From contig CALMST010000245.1 in assembly GCA_937872315.1 (NCBI GenBank), positions 1-52,277 of the forward strand: a DNA stretch of 52,277 nt, in the 5' to 3' direction. This stretch comes from an uncultured Ignavibacteria bacterium. GTDB taxonomy: Bacteria > Bacteroidota > Ignavibacteria > Tepidaquicellales > Tepidaquicellaceae. The notes under the pieces were generated by a model that searched no databases, was not told the DNA's origin, and was given only the letters and a program-made list of their open reading frames with translations. Position numbers and translations under genes: made by a program. Below, one piece after another: positions 15,976 through 26,554 of this stretch. The stretch's first letter is position 1. Every line of letters begins with the position of its first letter.

Positions 15976-16572
15976 TCAGTTTCTAAAAAAACTTATGTAA
16001 AGAAAATATATTATAATTATAGCTGAAGTGATCAGAAATGCCTGAAGCGATCTTCTCTCAGATCTGATCCCTTCATTGAATTTAAAGTTAAGATCTGATA
16101 AAATGCTCTCCGGAACATTGTAGAACCAAGGCAGAAATCTTCCGACAGATGATCTGTAAGTGGAAAACTTGTCAGCGAATTTCCCTGAAAGAAAATCCTC
16201 TTCCGCAAGAATTATGCATTGATACTGAAAAATGAAAAAAATGAATGCAAAGATCTGAAGCCAGGGAAAAAGCGCCATACTCATTATGCCTATTCCGACA
16301 TAGAGCATAATGTTTCCAATATATAAAGGATTTCTTACCATGGAGTATGGTCCTTGGGTAACGAGATACGTTCCGCCTACACCCGATGTGGTTCTTGTTT
16401 CACTTCCGGCATAACCCACAGACCATATCCTTATTAGTTCACCGGTCAGAGCTACGGAAAATCCTATTATAATGCTCAGGAGTGTCGGTTCCATGAATAA
16501 AAGCATCAATACGACAAACGGTACCGGAATATAACTACGGTATTTAAAAAAGTATTTCCCTAATTCTCTCAT
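15976..16572 (-). CDS. Isoprenylcysteine/phospholipid methyltransferase-like membrane protein
   Basis: A 198-residue integral membrane protein of the ICMT/PEMT superfamily. The hallmark is GPYSMVRNPLYIGNIMLYVG (about 94-113), the conserved S-adenosylmethionine-binding R-x-P-x-Y-x-G core, followed by an acidic segment LAEEDFLSGKFADKFSTY. About five hydrophobic helices flank it, including one at the C-terminus (AFLITSAIIIIYFLYISFF). The substrate cannot be assigned; bacterial members methylate varied lipids or small molecules. It lies 34 bases downstream of the phosphatase on the same strand. Confidence 0.85.
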   Translation of the reverse strand: MRELGKYFFKYRSYIPVPFVVLMLLFMEPTLLSIIIGFSVALTGELIRIWSVGYAGSETRTTSGVGGTYLVTQGPYSMVRNPLYIGNIMLYVGIGIMSMALFPWLQIFAFIFFIFQYQCIILAEEDFLSGKFADKFSTYRSSVGRFLPWFYNVPESILSDLNFKFNEGIRSERRSLQAFLITSAIIIIYFLYISFFRN

Positions 16573-16606: not shown

Positions 16607-17347
16607 TTATCCGCCCATAAAAATATCTTTTCTCCTCACACGCGCTTCCTGTCTTTGTTTGATCTTTCCCGCGCTTATCATCTTTTCCAGCTTATTCTGA
16701 ATATCATGAAAATTTTTATATTCAAAATAAGTTATGTTATTTTTCCAGCAGTAAGAAGCCAGTTTACCTTTTGCAAATACTATGTCAGCGAAATTACTTA
16801 CGCAATAATCTGAAGCTCCGTCTCCTATAAATACTGACACTTCATTATCAAGATCATTTGTGTTTGTAATAAGGATATTCCGTTTACAAGTCTCGCAGAG
16901 CTGACAATATTCATCGGTATAATTATACTTTGTGGAAAGTTTATATTCTGAATCTTCTGACTTTTCAAGAACTAATTCTGTTGAATAAACTTTCAGGTCA
17001 ATTTTCTCTGAATCAAAAATCCTGTTTATGTAATGATCCCATCCGCTGCTGAGAATCCTCAATTCAAAATTATTTTCTCTGCAGTATATGATAAAGTCTT
17101 TAAAATATTCATCGATCTCTTCTTTGTCAATTGCATCATTAAACTTGCCCGGGGAAAAATTCTCTATCAGTCCGACGATTAGACTGCCGGTTTCTCTGGT
17201 TCCTATGTTACCGTCGTGAAACTGCTTTATGACATTATCAAACTTATCTTTGTCATTTATAAATTGTAAAATTGTGTTTATCCAGACGTCATTCTTTGAG
17301 ACAGTGCCGTCAAAATCACAGAAGATCTTAAGCTTGCAGGACTTCAT
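16607..17347 (-). CDS. HAD-family phosphatase, MtnX/SerB-like
   Basis: A 246-residue haloacid-dehalogenase phosphatase. Motif I is IFCDFDGTVSKNDVW, with the nucleophile and acid Asp pair. LRILSSGWDHYINRIF carries motif II, and VFIGDGASDYCVSNFADIVFAK is motif III/IV. This resembles MtnX (methionine salvage) and SerB-type enzymes; the substrate is unproven and no other salvage gene is nearby. The frame extends to a TTG at 17371, but the ATG at 17347 just before the motif is the better start. It overlaps the smc 3' end by 20 bases. Confidence 0.8.
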   Translation of the reverse strand: MKSCKLKIFCDFDGTVSKNDVWINTILQFINDKDKFDNVIKQFHDGNIGTRETGSLIVGLIENFSPGKFNDAIDKEEIDEYFKDFIIYCRENNFELRILSSGWDHYINRIFDSEKIDLKVYSTELVLEKSEDSEYKLSTKYNYTDEYCQLCETCKRNILITNTNDLDNEVSVFIGDGASDYCVSNFADIVFAKGKLASYCWKNNITYFEYKNFHDIQNKLEKMISAGKIKQRQEARVRRKDIFMGG

Positions 17348-20300
17348 CGGATTTGAATTTTGTCTCAACAATAGTCGTCACTCCTGCTTCCTGCATGGTC
17401 ACTCCGTAAAGTCTGTCAACGGATTCCATCGTTCTTTCGTTATGTGTGATCATAATAAACTGAGTATTGTCGGAAAACTTTCGGATCATCTTGTTAAATC
17501 TGCCGAGATTGGCAACGTCAAGCGGCGCATCCACTTCATCAAGCACGCAGAATGGGGAAGGTTTTACAAGATAGATTGCAAACAGAAGCGCAATAGCAGT
17601 AAGAGTTTTCTCACCTCCGGAAAGTAATTCTATGGATGTCGGTCTCTTGCCCCGGGGCTTAGCAATGATCTCAATTTTTGCTTCAAGCGGATCTTCTTTT
17701 ATCTTTCCTTCTTCATCCTGTTCATAAACGATTTTCAAATTAGCTTCATCTCCTTCAGAAAACAATTCTTTGAAGATAATGATGAAATTTTCTCTGATCT
17801 GTTCGAATACACCCAGAAATCTTTCCCGGGCTTCCTTATTTATCTTATCTATGGTTTTCCGGATATCTTTTTCGGATTCCAGCAGATCGGCTTTCTGTTC
17901 GATAAGATTATTCAGTTCGGTTTTTTCATTCTCAAAATCCTCAAACAAAATCTGCTGATAACCTCCTCCGAGTTTTTTCAGCCTTTCAGAGAGTTCATCA
18001 ACACTTTGTTTTGCAGGTGCATATTCAAAATCATCATAGGTAAACGCAAGATTATCATCTGAGCCGTCTCGTGAAAAATCTTTTTCATATTTCTTAAGAA
18101 TATAATCTGTGATCTGATCAGATTTGATCTCATTCTCTTTTATTTTTATCTGTGCATTGATAAGCTTCTGTGAAATATTATCAAAATCAATTCTTCTTTG
18201 TCTTTGATCTACATCAACTGAGTGCTGTTGTTCTTTTACCGCATCATAAGATTCTTTCATTTCAGAATATCTTGTCCCGGTAATGCTGAATTTTTCTTTT
18301 AAAGAACTCAATCCCGAATTATTCTCTTCTATCAGGAGATTATAATTTTCGAGATTCTTTTTATTGTTCTCAATGCTTTCAGAATTTTTAATTATCTGAT
18401 TCTCATTAAATGAAAGAGTATTGATTATCCTTGCTTTGTTTTGCTCTTCATTTTTGATCTCATTCCTGATCTTTGTTAATTCAAGATTGAAATTGTTGTA
18501 GTCCAGAGAGTCGGCAGAGAAACCCTGCTCGATAACATTAAATTCATCTGTCAGAAAAATAAGCTCTTTATCCAGATTGAACTGTTCATTTTCAGATTCA
18601 TTTACTTTCTTAATGAGATCGTTGATCAATCCGTTAAGTATATTATTCTTTTCTTTAAGGTCATTATAAGTATTCTCATTATCGGTAATGGATCTGTTCA
18701 TCTGCTCTTTACGGAAATCAAGATTGGATAATTCAAGCTCAGTTTTATCCAGATCTTTCCTTGCGGTTTCATATTTACTTTTAGGTATGCCCGGTAAGAT
18801 CTCATTGAATTTAATATTCAGGACTTCGTTTTCACCAATTAAAATTTCAGCCTCTTTTTTAATGGAATCAGCTTTCTCAATATACTCATCTATCTTTTTT
18901 TGTCTGCCGAGTCTGAGAGATTCTTCATTAATGTTCCCACCTGCTCTGACAAAGCCTTTTGTTATAATGTCGCCATCGAGAGTAATGAATTTATAGTAAT
19001 TGTCTTCAGCTAATTTACGTGCAGTCGCAATATCTTCTACTATGACATATTCATCAAAGATATACTGCATCAGAAGAAGATATCTGTCATTTACGCATTT
19101 TACAAATTTATCAGCAAAACCATAAACGCCTTTTGTACCAATAAATTCAGGATCCGCAAATTCAAACGGAATGTAGTCATTGTTTTTATAATTCAGTACA
19201 TCATTGAGTATAAAGGTCACTTTGCCTTTTTCCTTTTCGGCAAGTTCTTTTATGAGTTCGTCCGTTATCTTCGAGTCATCCAGTATCAAATAACCCGAGA
19301 TCTCTCCAAGCGCCGTCTCTATGGCAATTTTAAATTTGTCTTCAACTTCAATGGTATCAAGTATTGTCGTGATCCTGCTCTCCTTACGTTCGCTTACAAG
19401 ATATTTCACGCCTTCACTGTAATCATCAAAATTTTCTTTAAGCTCTTCAAGATGTTCAATCTTATTCCTGATAATCTGCTCATCGGTCTTTAAGGCGGAT
19501 ATCTTTTTTTCGTTTGCGGAAATCAGTTCACCAAGTTTATTTTTTTCTTCTTCCCCGGCCTTGAATTCTTTTTCCGAAATTTTTACCAGCTCTGTCAGTT
19601 CGCTTATCTTATTTTCAAGAATGCTTTTTTCCTCTTCGATCTTATCAATACTTGCGATATGAACAGCATTCATATCCGAAAGTTTTTCAAGCTGTTTCAG
19701 ATTATTTTCATAATTGATCTTGTTTTTCTGATATTCTGATTTGTTTTCGGTAACGATCTTTGTGGCTTCCTTAAGTTTTTTACCAAGCTCGATCATTTCA
19801 GTTTTTTTAGCATTAATGATCTTTATGGAATCATCGACCTTTGCTTTCTTTTCGTTCAGAGAGATCTCCGAGATAAGAATTGTATTTGCAAGTACTTTTA
19901 TGTTATTTTCGAGATCGGTGAGTTTATCTTTATTTCTGCTGATGCTATTGTTAATCTGGGTTGTTTCGTTACTGATCCTTTCAATATCCTTTTCAAGATT
20001 CTTTTTCTTTTCTCCCAGTACGAGATTTTCTTTTTCAATTATGTCAATATCTTTTTTTTCTTCCGTAAGCTGAGCATTGATCTCGTCAAGTTTACTTTCC
20101 TTTGCTGAAAGCTCTGTTCTGAATTCATCCAGCATCAGATCATATTTTTTAAGTCCTTCGGATAATTCTTCTTTCAGGTCAAGATTTTCCTGTTCATGAT
20201 TTTTAATTTCTGTGATCTCACTTTTGAGTTTTTTAAATTCATAATAAGATACTTTTAACTCCAGCGATCTTAATTCTTCTGAAACAAGTTTAGCTTCTTC

Positions 20301-20936
20301 ATTCCGTTTTGCCTGTCTTTCAAGCGCATTTACATTTCTCTGTTTTTCCCGGATGATATCGTTAACTCTAAGGAGAGATTCATGAACAGCGTCAAGCCTG
20401 TTGAATGTAAGGTCCCTGTTATGTTTATAGGAAACGACTCCGGCGGCTTCTTCGAAGAGTTTTCTTCTTTCGTGTTTGACATCGGATAAAATGGTTTCAA
20501 CCATTTTTAGCTCGATCACTGAATATGCATCAGGTCCGATCCCGGTATCTATGAAAAGTTCTTTAATGTCCTTGAGTCTGACCTTTGTTCCGTTAAGATA
20601 ATATTCAGTTTCACCGCTTCTGTAAAATCTTCTGGCAATCTGAACTTCTGAATATTCGGTCGGCAGTTTATTCCTATTATTCTGAATTGTCACAGCTACT
20701 TCAGCCACGCTCAGCGGCTTTCTGTATTTTGTTCCGTTAAAAACCACATCTTCTCTTTTGCCGCTTCTAAGAACTTTATCGCCCTGCTCTCCGAGCACCC
20801 ATCTCAATGCATCTACTATGTTGGATTTTCCTGAGCCGTTGGGTCCTACAATAGCAGATACCCCGCTGTCAAACTCTATTGAAGTTTTATCGGCGAAAGA
20901 TTTGAATCCGAAAATTTCTAATTTAGATAGATACAA
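17328..20936 (-). CDS. smc: Chromosome segregation protein SMC
   Basis: A 1202-residue condensin ATPase that compacts and segregates chromosomes with ScpA/ScpB. Walker A is GPNGSGKSNIVDA (about 32-44). A long coiled coil follows, then the flexible hinge (about 520-650, including the EGVKYLVSERK and SGYLILDDSK region), the returning coiled coil, the ABC signature LLSGGEKTLTAIALLFA near 1107 and Walker B FCVLDEVDAPLD near 1131. The start is TTG at 20936-20934 (YLSKLEIFGFKSFADKT follows, the universal SMC N-terminus). One base separates it from the stop of the GH2-like gene upstream, and its end overlaps the phosphatase, so it sits in a tight operon. Confidence 0.97.
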   Translation of the reverse strand: MYLSKLEIFGFKSFADKTSIEFDSGVSAIVGPNGSGKSNIVDALRWVLGEQGDKVLRSGKREDVVFNGTKYRKPLSVAEVAVTIQNNRNKLPTEYSEVQIARRFYRSGETEYYLNGTKVRLKDIKELFIDTGIGPDAYSVIELKMVETILSDVKHERRKLFEEAAGVVSYKHNRDLTFNRLDAVHESLLRVNDIIREKQRNVNALERQAKRNEEAKLVSEELRSLELKVSYYEFKKLKSEITEIKNHEQENLDLKEELSEGLKKYDLMLDEFRTELSAKESKLDEINAQLTEEKKDIDIIEKENLVLGEKKKNLEKDIERISNETTQINNSISRNKDKLTDLENNIKVLANTILISEISLNEKKAKVDDSIKIINAKKTEMIELGKKLKEATKIVTENKSEYQKNKINYENNLKQLEKLSDMNAVHIASIDKIEEEKSILENKISELTELVKISEKEFKAGEEEKNKLGELISANEKKISALKTDEQIIRNKIEHLEELKENFDDYSEGVKYLVSERKESRITTILDTIEVEDKFKIAIETALGEISGYLILDDSKITDELIKELAEKEKGKVTFILNDVLNYKNNDYIPFEFADPEFIGTKGVYGFADKFVKCVNDRYLLLMQYIFDEYVIVEDIATARKLAEDNYYKFITLDGDIITKGFVRAGGNINEESLRLGRQKKIDEYIEKADSIKKEAEILIGENEVLNIKFNEILPGIPKSKYETARKDLDKTELELSNLDFRKEQMNRSITDNENTYNDLKEKNNILNGLINDLIKKVNESENEQFNLDKELIFLTDEFNVIEQGFSADSLDYNNFNLELTKIRNEIKNEEQNKARIINTLSFNENQIIKNSESIENNKKNLENYNLLIEENNSGLSSLKEKFSITGTRYSEMKESYDAVKEQQHSVDVDQRQRRIDFDNISQKLINAQIKIKENEIKSDQITDYILKKYEKDFSRDGSDDNLAFTYDDFEYAPAKQSVDELSERLKKLGGGYQQILFEDFENEKTELNNLIEQKADLLESEKDIRKTIDKINKEARERFLGVFEQIRENFIIIFKELFSEGDEANLKIVYEQDEEGKIKEDPLEAKIEIIAKPRGKRPTSIELLSGGEKTLTAIALLFAIYLVKPSPFCVLDEVDAPLDVANLGRFNKMIRKFSDNTQFIMITHNERTMESVDRLYGVTMQEAGVTTIVETKFKSDEVLQA

Positions 20937-20937
20937 A

Positions 20938-23553
20938 TTATGAAGTTACAGTTAAATTCTTAACGAGATCAATTGTTTCTGTTGCTCCCGTAAAAAAGTA
21001 AAAATAAGAATAAATAACAACAAATATAATAAGTATTATTACTGTTCCGTAAATATATACTTTCCCTGTCCTGATATCAAAAAGAGTCTTGGCGCCGATT
21101 ATTAATCTGTTCAGATACAGAAAATATAAAATCACAAACAGCCACATAGTAATATTGATGTAAGCGGGATTAGAGTCTGATAATTTATAAAGTACCGTTC
21201 CGATAAATAAAAAGATAAGCATTGGTAAAGTTGACCATACACATATGCTGTATATTATCTTCAGATAGGATTTACCTTTGGTATAGAAAGAGATAAAATA
21301 AAGAAAAAAAGCTGTTATAAATGTTAACAATAAATTTAAAATTGTCAGTGAGGCTATCAGATAAAATTTATTATTTGATATATCGCTGAAAACAATCTTT
21401 GCCTGACCGTCTGAAAAGATCTTTGCCAGTATCATGTCAAATGAATTGCTATCTGCATAATAAAATATCACTGAAGAAAAATACAGACCCAGTCCTATCG
21501 AGATGCTAACTGCAAGAAGAATATTGTAACCGGTAGAAACGATCATCTGATCTTTTACCAGCGAAAAGAAATATGTCGGCTTATACAGGCATCTCAGGAG
21601 ATTTGATCTGAATTTTTTATCTCTGTTGACGAAATATATAAGTATCAGGATCATTGTAATTCCTGTAACTATAAAAATATATGGCAGCTCCTTGACATAA
21701 TTTCCTTCCTGAATTCTCGGAAGATCCTCTTTGTTAAGCATTCTTTTTGCAAACTCTGCCGAACGTTTCTGTTCACGGTTGTATGTATATAGTCCGCTGG
21801 TATTTAAATATGGATTTGCATCAAGAGGATAGTTAAGAGGATTTTCGGAATTGTAATCAGCATAAGATGCAATAAAATTACCGAACATGGATTGTGATAT
21901 CTTAGGATAACATTCAGACAAAAATTTCATCTGTGACTCCTGTGACTTTGGATCACTGAACCCGTTGCTGTTACTGTTCTCGATCTTTATTCCGTAATAT
22001 GACACAAATAAATTTCTGTTCTTTCTGTTTTCAACAGGCTTTGATCTGTCAGTTATCTCGGCAGTGATCTTGTTTATCTTTTCATAACTCTTATCATAAA
22101 AATTTATTCCGGTAAAATCCACTTCCTCCGAACATATGTCCGTATTGAATGCCCGTGATGTATAATATTTAAATCTACCGTTAAGCGAATCGATCAAAGC
22201 AGTTGCAGTCCTTACATATTCAAGAGAAAGAGGCGTGGAGACATCAAAGTCATTACCAATTCCCCAGGCAAATATGCAGGGAGAATTTTTATCTCTTTCA
22301 ACGATATCCGTTATATAATTCAGTGATAATCTTACATATTTATCACTTTCAAGATAATACGGGTTAAGCTCATTGAATGGGATCTCCTGCAGAACAAACA
22401 GACCGAGGATATTACATGCGGAAATAATATATTTGTTTGCTGATCTGCCGGGAACTCTGACAGCATTGAATCCCATCGTCTTAATATTCTTCATGTCCTT
22501 ATACACTTCAGAATATTCCAATGCAGAGGCATATCTTGGATGGTCTTCGTAATAGTTGATCCCGTTTATCACAAACGGTCTTCCGCTAATGAATACCTGA
22601 TTATCCTTAGTCGTCAGATTTGTAAATCCAGTCTCGGTTACCAGTTCGTCAAAAACAGTTTCTTTGGCATTTGTGATCAGGACTTTTACCGAATACAGCA
22701 CGGGATTCTCAGGACTCCATAAAACAGGGTTGGATATATTTATGTCATTATTAATCTTAAGTGAGTTATTGTTTCCTATCTTAAAGGGAATCCTGTCGCT
22801 TTTACCGGCAACTGAGCTGTCTGCTTTCCTGTAAATTAATGTCTGAACAAAAAACTCTCCTGAATTCAGCGAATCGCTTAGAGTTCCAAGTTCAGAAGAC
22901 TTTATATCTATAATGTTAGAGATCTTTAGAGTAAGTAAATTATCAACTTTGTATCTGATATAATTACCGAGAACAAAAAGCTTCGGAACGGCAATTAAAT
23001 AAATGTCTTTTGTGATGCCTCCATAAACTTTGGAATAATTTATCTGATCGGAAAGCGGGATGGTGTTTTTGAAATTGAGTTCATTATCCGCATTGATCAG
23101 GATCTCGTTGGAAAGTGTGATGATACCGTCTGTCAGCGGAAAATAAACAGGCGTAAATCCGCCGGAATGCTTTGTGATAAAATTATTATTGATCCTGATC
23201 TCGGATTCATATTCAATGCCTTCAGCTACTAATATAAATGTGAAATTGTTTAAAGTCTCCTGGTCTATGGTAAAATTCTTTTTGAATATGACCTTACCTT
23301 CAAAATCAAATGCCATTGGAATTATGAATTTATCATAACTCTTAGCTTCATTAAACGATACATCCCATTGACCGTTGAGACTGATGATCTTCCTTGCGGG
23401 ACTCCGGGGATAGATATCCGGATTAGAAAACACGTTCTCTGTAGGTCTCTCAAAGACCCTTATCTGGGAATAAATAAAACCGGGACTGTACAATAATATT
23501 ATCAGAATCAGCAGAGCGCTGAGCTTGATCTTACCGGCGAAATCTTTTCTCAT
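20938..23553 (-). CDS. GH2-like protein with six-helix membrane tail, catalytic residues lost
   Basis: An 871-residue protein. It has a signal peptide (about 1-29). A glycoside-hydrolase family 2 layout follows: sugar-binding jelly roll (SLNGQWDVSF near 58), Ig-like domain with NPVLWSPENPVLY near 275, and a TIM-barrel-like domain with ING-type start (VFISGRPFVINGINYYEDH, about 320) and GFNAVRVPG (361-369). The usual acid/base motif W-x-x-G-N-E reads WGIGND (Asp435), and the nucleophile motif T-E-Y-G reads SYYG (Tyr519), so the known catalytic glutamates are absent. Six hydrophobic helices occupy about 624-855, perhaps Yip1-like. It is probably a non-hydrolytic envelope protein that binds sugar or protein. 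The gene ends one base before smc. Confidence 0.75.
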   Translation of the reverse strand: MRKDFAGKIKLSALLILIILLYSPGFIYSQIRVFERPTENVFSNPDIYPRSPARKIISLNGQWDVSFNEAKSYDKFIIPMAFDFEGKVIFKKNFTIDQETLNNFTFILVAEGIEYESEIRINNNFITKHSGGFTPVYFPLTDGIITLSNEILINADNELNFKNTIPLSDQINYSKVYGGITKDIYLIAVPKLFVLGNYIRYKVDNLLTLKISNIIDIKSSELGTLSDSLNSGEFFVQTLIYRKADSSVAGKSDRIPFKIGNNNSLKINNDINISNPVLWSPENPVLYSVKVLITNAKETVFDELVTETGFTNLTTKDNQVFISGRPFVINGINYYEDHPRYASALEYSEVYKDMKNIKTMGFNAVRVPGRSANKYIISACNILGLFVLQEIPFNELNPYYLESDKYVRLSLNYITDIVERDKNSPCIFAWGIGNDFDVSTPLSLEYVRTATALIDSLNGRFKYYTSRAFNTDICSEEVDFTGINFYDKSYEKINKITAEITDRSKPVENRKNRNLFVSYYGIKIENSNSNGFSDPKSQESQMKFLSECYPKISQSMFGNFIASYADYNSENPLNYPLDANPYLNTSGLYTYNREQKRSAEFAKRMLNKEDLPRIQEGNYVKELPYIFIVTGITMILILIYFVNRDKKFRSNLLRCLYKPTYFFSLVKDQMIVSTGYNILLAVSISIGLGLYFSSVIFYYADSNSFDMILAKIFSDGQAKIVFSDISNNKFYLIASLTILNLLLTFITAFFLYFISFYTKGKSYLKIIYSICVWSTLPMLIFLFIGTVLYKLSDSNPAYINITMWLFVILYFLYLNRLIIGAKTLFDIRTGKVYIYGTVIILIIFVVIYSYFYFFTGATETIDLVKNLTVTS

Positions 23554-24352: not shown

Positions 24353-26554
24353 TTATTTTAAAAGTATCATTCTGTTTGTCTCAATGTTTCTGCCTGATTC
24401 AAGTCTGTAAAAATAAAAACCACTTGATAAAGAACTTCCGTCGAAAGCTGATTCATAGGCTCCTGCATTTCTGAATTCATCTACAATTGTTCTTATTAAT
24501 CTGCCGGTAATGTCATATACTGAAAGTTTAACATGCCCGTTTTCCGGAATTTCAAATCTGATAATAGTTGAAGGATTAAACGGATTTGGATAGTTCTCGT
24601 GCAGTTTGAATTTAAATTTGTTACTGGATCTCAGTTCGGCATTATCTTTTATTGGATCTTCTGATTTAATGTAGGATCCGTTGATCTTTAGATAATAATA
24701 ATGATCCTTATCCATATTCTTTTTATTCAAAAAACTAAGGCTGACATTTCTTCCGTTTCCAACTGTCAGGTAATTATTGTCATCATAAGCAATAATTTTC
24801 GAAAAATCCCTTTGATTGTCGGGTGGAGGGATCATATCAAGTTCATACACAGAATTTGTATTGAGATCTTTTACCAAAGCAATTCTGTCAATTTCACATT
24901 TCTGAAGCGCGGTTAAAGTTAAACTCGTGAAATTCGGTTTATCAAGTTTTATACAGACATCACCGGGTAATTCTCTCAGATAAATATCAGCATTTTCATT
25001 CAGGGAAGTATTCATCCGGAATGAAATTATTTCCTTGCTTGCCTTTGTTCTTCCGCGAATTACAAGATAATTTTCATCTCCGGGCGGAACAATTATTTTC
25101 AAAACTGAATCTTTATCCAAGGTATATGTGATATTATCAATTGATCTGAGTTCTTCGGAAACATCCAGATCATGATTTGTAATAACTTTGTTTCTATCCT
25201 GATCATTTTCAAAGTTTATAACCTGACCATCGACAGTGACTGCGGCTTCAGTATTCTTCTCAGCTTCGATCTGATACATTTTCAGAAGATCGATCTTTGT
25301 AATGTCATTTCCTTTCTCCGAAACATTGAAACTTATGGTATCTTTATCAGCATTGAAAGGATTATATGTCAGATAAAAATCGTCCACATCTGATCCGGGA
25401 TTTGCCAAAGATGTCGTCAGAATATGATTCTCCGTCACATCAATGCCTTTTTCTTTAAAAACTACAGCAGGACAACCCTGGGGATCCTGACCGAAAATCG
25501 GATGAAATTTAAAACTATTGGAATTAAAATAATTGTTTGATACCTGAAGATGGATAGAATAATATTCAAGAAGTTCGGATGTTGATCCAGACATATTCGC
25601 ATTTAAAATTGCATAATCTAAATACGGAGTCATTTGATGATTTTGAATATTATTTGAATCTGACCAGATACTTGAATCATAATAGCCGGATGTATTATTG
25701 GTTATAATTGCTAAATGATTGGATGGAGTGAGCAATGCAGGATAAGACTGCATGTATAGTATGTTAGGCTGCCCGTCATATCTGAATACAACCCGCGCTT
25801 CTTCCGGACGGCAGGGGACATAACCCAGATCCTGCCCGAGTATATTTCCCAGTCGGTAAACAAATGTCCCGAATTTAATTTCATTGTCCGTACGGCTGAT
25901 AACATAAGCCCATCTGTTCTGAGGATTAGGCAAAGATCCCGGATAACCTAAACTATATTCATTAACCAGATCAGGTATTGAATCCGTAAAATCACCCTGT
26001 ATTGTAAATGTAATTTTATATTGTTTCAGATAATAAGCGCCGGATGCGACTGATTCACAATCTTCACTGCTGAAAAAGACACCGAAAACATTTTCTCTTA
26101 ATAATTCGACTGATCCGTTACTCAGTGAAAAGAAGGGGCTATTATTACCGTCTCTGTAAATAATAAAATAAAAATATTTTGTGTACGGGAACATCGGATA
26201 CATTGTACTTATTGCAGTGATCTTTATAGTAACAGGTTCATTGTATTTTAAACCCGGTAAATTTTCCGGGTTAAGCGGAGTTGAAAGTTGCTGACCTTTA
26301 GGAACGATCTGATCATACATTAAAATTTGTACACCTCTCTGCACCAGATAGATCCTGCAAATGGGATCTCCACGGTCAAGACTTCCGGCAGAATCAATTT
26401 TATAATTGATATTTATATTGCCGGTAGGGTAATAAAAAGGAGTCGGGTTTTGCTGACTCGGACAAATGTTGTTGACAGTTATCAAATATGACATTCCCAT
26501 GTCATTAATTAAAAATGTGAACATTACTAATAGAAATACTTTAATCGTTTTCAT
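24353..26554 (-). CDS. Secreted protein with type IX (T9SS) C-terminal sorting domain
   Basis: A 733-residue exported protein. A signal peptide (MKTIKVFLLVMFTFLIND, about 1-20) precedes a long, mostly beta-rich region I cannot assign to a family. The C-terminal 85 residues are a classic T9SS type A sorting domain: FKLHENYPNPFNPSTIIRFEIP, VKLSVYDITGRLIRTIV, AGAYESAFDGSSLSSGFYFYRL and the terminal TNRMILLK. Such domains route cargo through the Por outer-membrane translocon and are then cleaved. The gene supplies the strongest lineage clue in the window. It stands alone with long spacers upstream. Confidence 0.9.
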   Translation of the reverse strand: MKTIKVFLLVMFTFLINDMGMSYLITVNNICPSQQNPTPFYYPTGNININYKIDSAGSLDRGDPICRIYLVQRGVQILMYDQIVPKGQQLSTPLNPENLPGLKYNEPVTIKITAISTMYPMFPYTKYFYFIIYRDGNNSPFFSLSNGSVELLRENVFGVFFSSEDCESVASGAYYLKQYKITFTIQGDFTDSIPDLVNEYSLGYPGSLPNPQNRWAYVISRTDNEIKFGTFVYRLGNILGQDLGYVPCRPEEARVVFRYDGQPNILYMQSYPALLTPSNHLAIITNNTSGYYDSSIWSDSNNIQNHQMTPYLDYAILNANMSGSTSELLEYYSIHLQVSNNYFNSNSFKFHPIFGQDPQGCPAVVFKEKGIDVTENHILTTSLANPGSDVDDFYLTYNPFNADKDTISFNVSEKGNDITKIDLLKMYQIEAEKNTEAAVTVDGQVINFENDQDRNKVITNHDLDVSEELRSIDNITYTLDKDSVLKIIVPPGDENYLVIRGRTKASKEIISFRMNTSLNENADIYLRELPGDVCIKLDKPNFTSLTLTALQKCEIDRIALVKDLNTNSVYELDMIPPPDNQRDFSKIIAYDDNNYLTVGNGRNVSLSFLNKKNMDKDHYYYLKINGSYIKSEDPIKDNAELRSSNKFKFKLHENYPNPFNPSTIIRFEIPENGHVKLSVYDITGRLIRTIVDEFRNAGAYESAFDGSSLSSGFYFYRLESGRNIETNRMILLK

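Follow-up and report, generated by a model that had tools for sequence, protein, structure and literature searches.

A probable membrane-anchored GH2-like pseudo-glycosidase encoded next to smc in Ignavibacteria

The window analysed here, a 52,277-nucleotide stretch of DNA from an uncultured Ignavibacteria bacterium, carries on its minus strand a gene (20938–23553) for a GH2-like protein that lacks both catalytic glutamates of this glycosidase family, ends in a YIP1-type membrane tail and is encoded directly before smc. On balance, we favour the explanation that this protein is a membrane-anchored pseudo-glycosidase acting as an envelope receptor or scaffold and co-expressed with smc. On this view, a beta-glucuronidase/galacturonidase-type GH2 enzyme would have become fused to a YIP1-type membrane domain before the class diversified; nearly all lineages would then have lost retaining-glycosidase chemistry, with the fold and a specific loop staying under selection. 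The periplasmic GH2 part would use the face of the barrel near this NxNG[YF]SD loop to bind either a glycan of the envelope or a partner protein, and the YIP1 domain, together with a basic cytosolic segment, would relay binding across the inner membrane or hold a cytosolic partner.

The reading frame runs from 23553 to 20938, an orientation that the sequence-only reading had not given, and encodes 871 amino acids (coding positions 20941–23553, TAA stop at 20938–20940). Residues 1–30 (23464–23553) are an N-terminal signal-type hydrophobic helix by hydropathy, modelled as a helix at residues 9–26, and among the 54 N-termini listed for orthologues the majority likewise begin with a hydrophobic stretch. 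It is followed, on the same minus strand, by GH2 N-terminal sugar-binding-type and Ig-like beta domains (approximately residues 50–310; 22621–23404), by a GH2 TIM barrel (approximately residues 313–606; 21736–22617) and by the membrane tail (residues 606–871; 20941–21738), which comprises one helix and a five-helix YIP1-type domain. All three GH2 profiles of Pfam score above their curated cut-offs, namely GH2_N (PF02837) at 32.8 bits against 28, GH2 (PF00703) at 36.3 against 23 and GH2_C (PF02836, E 3.2e-18) at 66.3 against 21. GH2_C is matched by all 50 aligned orthologues, and a search of the window's genome returned the gene before smc as its only GH2_C gene. An AlphaFold2 model built from the alignment of 50 orthologues (pLDDT 90) bears out the GH2 assignment made from sequence: residues 42–609 match structures of GH2 beta-galacturonidases and beta-glucuronidases (Foldseek E ~1e-37), and structural alignment to the beta-glucuronidase type gave a Z score of 38.7 at 2.6 Å over 530 residues. 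The protein shares its three-part architecture and fold with these enzymes (e.g. PDB 6ncx, 6xxw and 8dhw) but differs from them in that the acid/base and nucleophile glutamates are replaced, other pocket positions are variable, the loop after the nucleophile strand is different and a six-helix membrane tail is added.

The acid/base position is occupied by Asp435 (22249–22251, minus strand), within a WGIGND motif that starts at residue 430, and the nucleophile position by Tyr519 (21997–21999, minus strand), within an SYYG motif that starts at residue 518, in agreement with the loss of both glutamates noted from sequence. That positions 435 and 519 correspond to the two catalytic glutamates is secure from the alignment, because these columns read WGIGNE and ITEYG in orthologues from Kryptonia. 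We counted the active-site columns in 139 non-redundant orthologues sharing less than 85% identity and found that neither Asp435 nor Tyr519 is fixed. Position 435 holds G in 41, D in 33, E in 26, N in 16, S in 7 and Q in 6 of these sequences, and position 519 holds S in 28, R in 24, E in 19, K in 14, G in 13 and N in 11, with other residues in the remainder of each column. Within the barrel, the entropies of these hypervariable columns rank at the 55th and the 84th percentile, respectively, and the further expected pocket positions 335, 434, 484 and 486 also vary across orthologues. These counts rule out a fixed, specific substitution at the two sites. Just past the nucleophile strand lies the loop N528-x-N-G531-[YF]-S-D534, represented in the window by N528-S-N-G531-F-S-D534 (21952–21972, minus strand), in which G531 is present in 139/139 orthologues, N528 in 128/139 and D534 in 123/139; G531 and G587 are invariant.

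Kryptonia alone keep both glutamates, and with them H335 and N434 (L037, L075, L170 and L172 in our tree, and additionally L171), and their clade (support 100) nests inside the orthologue family in a FastTree phylogeny. We know of no catalytic GH2 without both glutamates. Given this and the nested position of Kryptonia, repeated loss of the catalytic glutamates is the simplest reading of the alignment and tree; at least 14 changes at position 435 and at least 6 at position 519 are needed on the tree, counts that carry no direction and come from an alignment with many rows of uneven composition. By residue criteria, the GH2 part is catalytically dead in nearly all lineages. The Kryptonia orthologues share domain order, loop and place before smc with the window protein but, unlike it, are probably catalytically competent, judging from their motifs, and since they could be active enzymes, the ancestral activity may persist there. 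The Kryptonia copies keep glutamates and linkage alike, so that inactivity is not strictly tied to the position before smc.

Judged by substitution rates, the GH2-like gene is clearly kept by selection: against a same-genus relative, its dN/dS is 0.044 overall, 0.034 in the barrel and 0.031 in the tail, and that of smc in the same genus pair is 0.033. The protein combines a glycosidase fold, lost catalytic residues and purifying selection, as a pseudo-glycosidase would. Klotho, a single-span animal protein of the GH1 family that serves as an FGF co-receptor, is to our knowledge of independent origin. There are established pseudo-glycosidases whose function is binding and not cleavage (PMC7828330), among them Klotho (PMC10628560), and Klotho-type membrane pseudo-glycosidases resemble the window protein in presenting a membrane-attached glycosidase-fold ectodomain without the conserved catalytic glutamates (PMC10628560). 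The comparison is one of analogous working and not of homology. A role as sensor or scaffold, as put forward from sequence, is the most reasonable inference for the GH2-like protein. Our literature search found no paper joining a Yip1 domain with a glycoside hydrolase and nothing relevant on an inactive GH2 with transmembrane segments.

The model places six membrane helices after the barrel, at approximately residues 625–644, 674–698, 729–755, 764–794, 797–825 and 829–855, the same number as had been read from sequence. In both structure models five helices follow the first one, which fits the approximately five helices of YIP1 (PF04893). The window copy scores 23.3 bits against the YIP1 profile in a genome search, below the Pfam curated cut-off of 28.6 bits, but several orthologues pass it over profile positions 3–171 (32.7, 31.3 and 29.6 bits), as do forms that consist of the tail only (29.2–34.7 bits, among them 33.0 and 34.7). 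Because these orthologues and tail-only forms exceed the cut-off that the window copy does not reach, we name the domain YIP1-type. At E values up to 0.1 the profile is matched by 19/50 orthologues, the best at 2.7e-6. With the YIP1 family, that is, eukaryotic Yip1p/YIPF and bacterial YIP1 proteins, the tail has a five-helix membrane domain in common; it differs in the sub-threshold score of the window copy, in its fusion to a predicted periplasmic GH2 domain and in one extra leading helix. Foldseek found no solved structure resembling the membrane domain (best E 0.13, the O-antigen transporter Wzm), and such a missing match is weak evidence. No function has been reported for prokaryotic YIP1 members (PMC6682643).

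Conservation of the tail is close to that of the barrel (mean entropy 2.38 versus 2.41 bits). Of the parts tested, the one that links helices 1 and 2 shows the strongest conservation (1.60). This segment, residues 645–673, is basic and has the consensus RRFRExxxRxLxRPYNFFADxRDQR, which most members show in the form RRFRExxxRxLxRPYNFFADIRDQR. Under the positive-inside rule its basic character would place it in the cytosol and the GH2 part outside, and the N-terminal signal-type helix likewise argues for a GH2 part outside the cytoplasm. The predicted topology is therefore one in which the GH2 part faces the periplasm.

An orthologue is present in 39/40 relatives and in 188/197 genomes of the class, generally once per genome, and the named records with orthologues are Ignavibacteria, Ignavibacteriae, Chlorobi/Chlorobiota and Kryptonia assemblies. 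Searches with the membrane tail also brought up full-length relatives in other classes of the phylum (families f29, f32, f47 and f59). Recurrence of the complete arrangement across the class, and beyond it in some neighbouring classes, shows that it is not a product of chance. Shortened relatives of two kinds exist. Those at loci L137–L143 and L147 (families f36, f48, f50, f51 and f62) are approximately 550–680 amino acids long and retain the TIM barrel and the same membrane tail, without the two beta domains or any catalytic residue, and do not adjoin smc. In genus g28 of family f11, no GH2 domain is left, and the gene directly before smc encodes only the YIP1-type tail, a protein of approximately 290–310 amino acids, as open frames of 294 (L144, 6321–7202, plus strand) and 312 amino acids (L245, 5320–6255, minus strand). 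As this genus does without the GH2 part altogether, the role of the protein cannot consist in glycan binding alone. A separate, strongly diverged copy in the 1.7 Mb genome G141 (L145, 3478–6033, plus strand) has lost most conserved residues and still stands before smc.

In the window, smc (17328–20936, minus strand; 1202 amino acids; PF02463 and SMC_hinge) begins with a TTG codon at 20934–20936, one base beyond the stop of the GH2-like gene, as the sequence-only reading had stated. It is followed by open reading frames for a HAD-type phosphatase (16607–17371, minus strand), which is the conserved +2 neighbour, and for a PEMT/ICMT-like membrane methyltransferase (15976–16572, minus strand), the conserved +3 neighbour, both named from Pfam matches of the orthologous clusters rather than of the window copies. 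On the other side, the upstream neighbour (24353–26554, minus strand) encodes a 733-amino-acid protein whose only assigned part is a Por secretion C-terminal sorting domain (PF18962). The smc start is TTG in the window's family and in f2, f10, f22 and f26 and mostly ATG in other families; the TTG start may reflect translational coupling.

Across many families and several classes, smc lies directly downstream on the same strand in 117/134 evaluable non-redundant loci, so the neighbourhood seen in the window does persist in other genomes. Stop-to-start gaps cluster at -1 to +16 nucleotides. All 17 unlinked loci lie within a single supported clade of 18 members, of which only L051 is still linked, at 336 nucleotides; both genes are kept in the unlinked genomes, with smc elsewhere. 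The ancestral-looking gene string reads sucC-gatB-tpiA-[GH2-like gene]-smc-HAD phosphatase-PEMT/ICMT-lpxB-lpxK, and its members other than smc are kept in about half of the loci or fewer.

It is quite plausible, if somewhat short of an even chance, that this linkage reflects a translationally coupled operon passed down by inheritance, without any functional tie to SMC. Such a proposal addresses the linkage alone and can stand alongside that of a membrane-anchored pseudo-glycosidase. The conserved string brings together genes for metabolism, translation, the chromosome and lipid A, and in the unlinked clade the gene adjoins genes as unrelated as hrcA-grpE-dnaJ, purC with an FtsW/RodA gene, glutamate-cysteine ligase and sprA. 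In one such genome (family f14; L072, 3–3746, minus strand), the divergent neighbour is this type IX secretion gene sprA, and L055, L071, L073 and L074 have long divergent frames at the same place. Set against mere inheritance, only the smc link is kept almost without exception outside the one clade, with neighbours decaying on both sides, and the tail-only form keeps it as well.

The same facts can be read, with less likelihood, as those of a dedicated membrane partner of SMC, in which the YIP1 tail would keep the SMC complex at the inner membrane or regulate it there, with the GH2 part reporting on the envelope. This reading, too, bears on the linkage and leaves room for the pseudo-glycosidase explanation. 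The recurrence and tight spacing of the pair, and the confinement of its exceptions to a single clade, speak for such a partner, as does the weaker conservation of the next best neighbours, tpiA at -1 (47/145) and HAD at +2 (61/125); the membrane domain, moreover, remains before smc after loss of the GH2 part. In addition, genomes G033 and G161 (94 and 99 percent complete) have neither gene in their draft assemblies, and in G161 tpiA sits deep within a contig and is flanked by neither of them. Most genomes in the comparison are draft assemblies, however, and the joint absence in these two may be a joint loss or a joint assembly gap. The partner reading is further weakened by the clade that keeps both genes apart and by the remote shortened relatives that do not adjoin smc, and gene order is not function. 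Co-occurrence is not obligate either, for smc is found without the GH2-like gene in the f11 genomes G057, G092 and G099 and in G218. For these reasons the link to chromosome segregation proposed from sequence has so far found no support: one large clade separates the genes, smc occurs alone in some f11 genomes and in other members of the phylum, and the string consists of housekeeping and lipid A genes. Of the options, a real connection with SMC would be the most interesting, and it may exist, but the inherited operon explains the same facts. A fuller version, with a class-wide membrane protein that would connect envelope and chromosome, in which the periplasmic pseudo-glycosidase would read a glycan of the wall or of lipopolysaccharide while the YIP1 domain would tether or regulate the SMC complex from the cytosolic side, the membrane part alone being enough in lineages such as L144, strikes us as distinctly unlikely. 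Our literature search found no paper combining Ignavibacteria, smc and GH2.

It is similarly doubtful that the protein is still a carbohydrate-active enzyme in which other conserved acids (E336, E390, D534 and D566) replace the two glutamates. Combined D and E conservation is high at these positions (0.84, 0.98, 0.89 and 0.99, respectively), and R366 at the second strand is kept in 123/139 orthologues. Judged from the alignment, however, E336, E390 and D566 resemble the usual landmarks of GH2 proteins, the neighbouring pocket positions 335, 434, 484 and 486 all vary, and no family-wide substitute acid pair was found among the orthologues. A decaying GH2 gene en route to loss, despite the many losses of catalytic residues and a broken copy in G063, is rejected by a dN/dS of approximately 0.04, single-copy presence in nearly every genome of the class, the invariant loop and the conserved tail, this family-wide conservation leaving it scarcely credible. 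The G063 copy (family f15; L146, 3830–6615, plus strand) is split into three frames, where sister genomes have one.

The GH2-like gene is part of the single-copy core of almost an entire bacterial class and has been without an assigned function. Its relatives form a natural series, from an intact active site in Kryptonia through half-lost and fully lost sites to an enzyme domain that is gone with the membrane part kept, and a shift from enzyme to receptor or scaffold therefore becomes directly testable. If the linkage to smc proves functional, the protein would be an unusual membrane-bound partner of a bacterial SMC.
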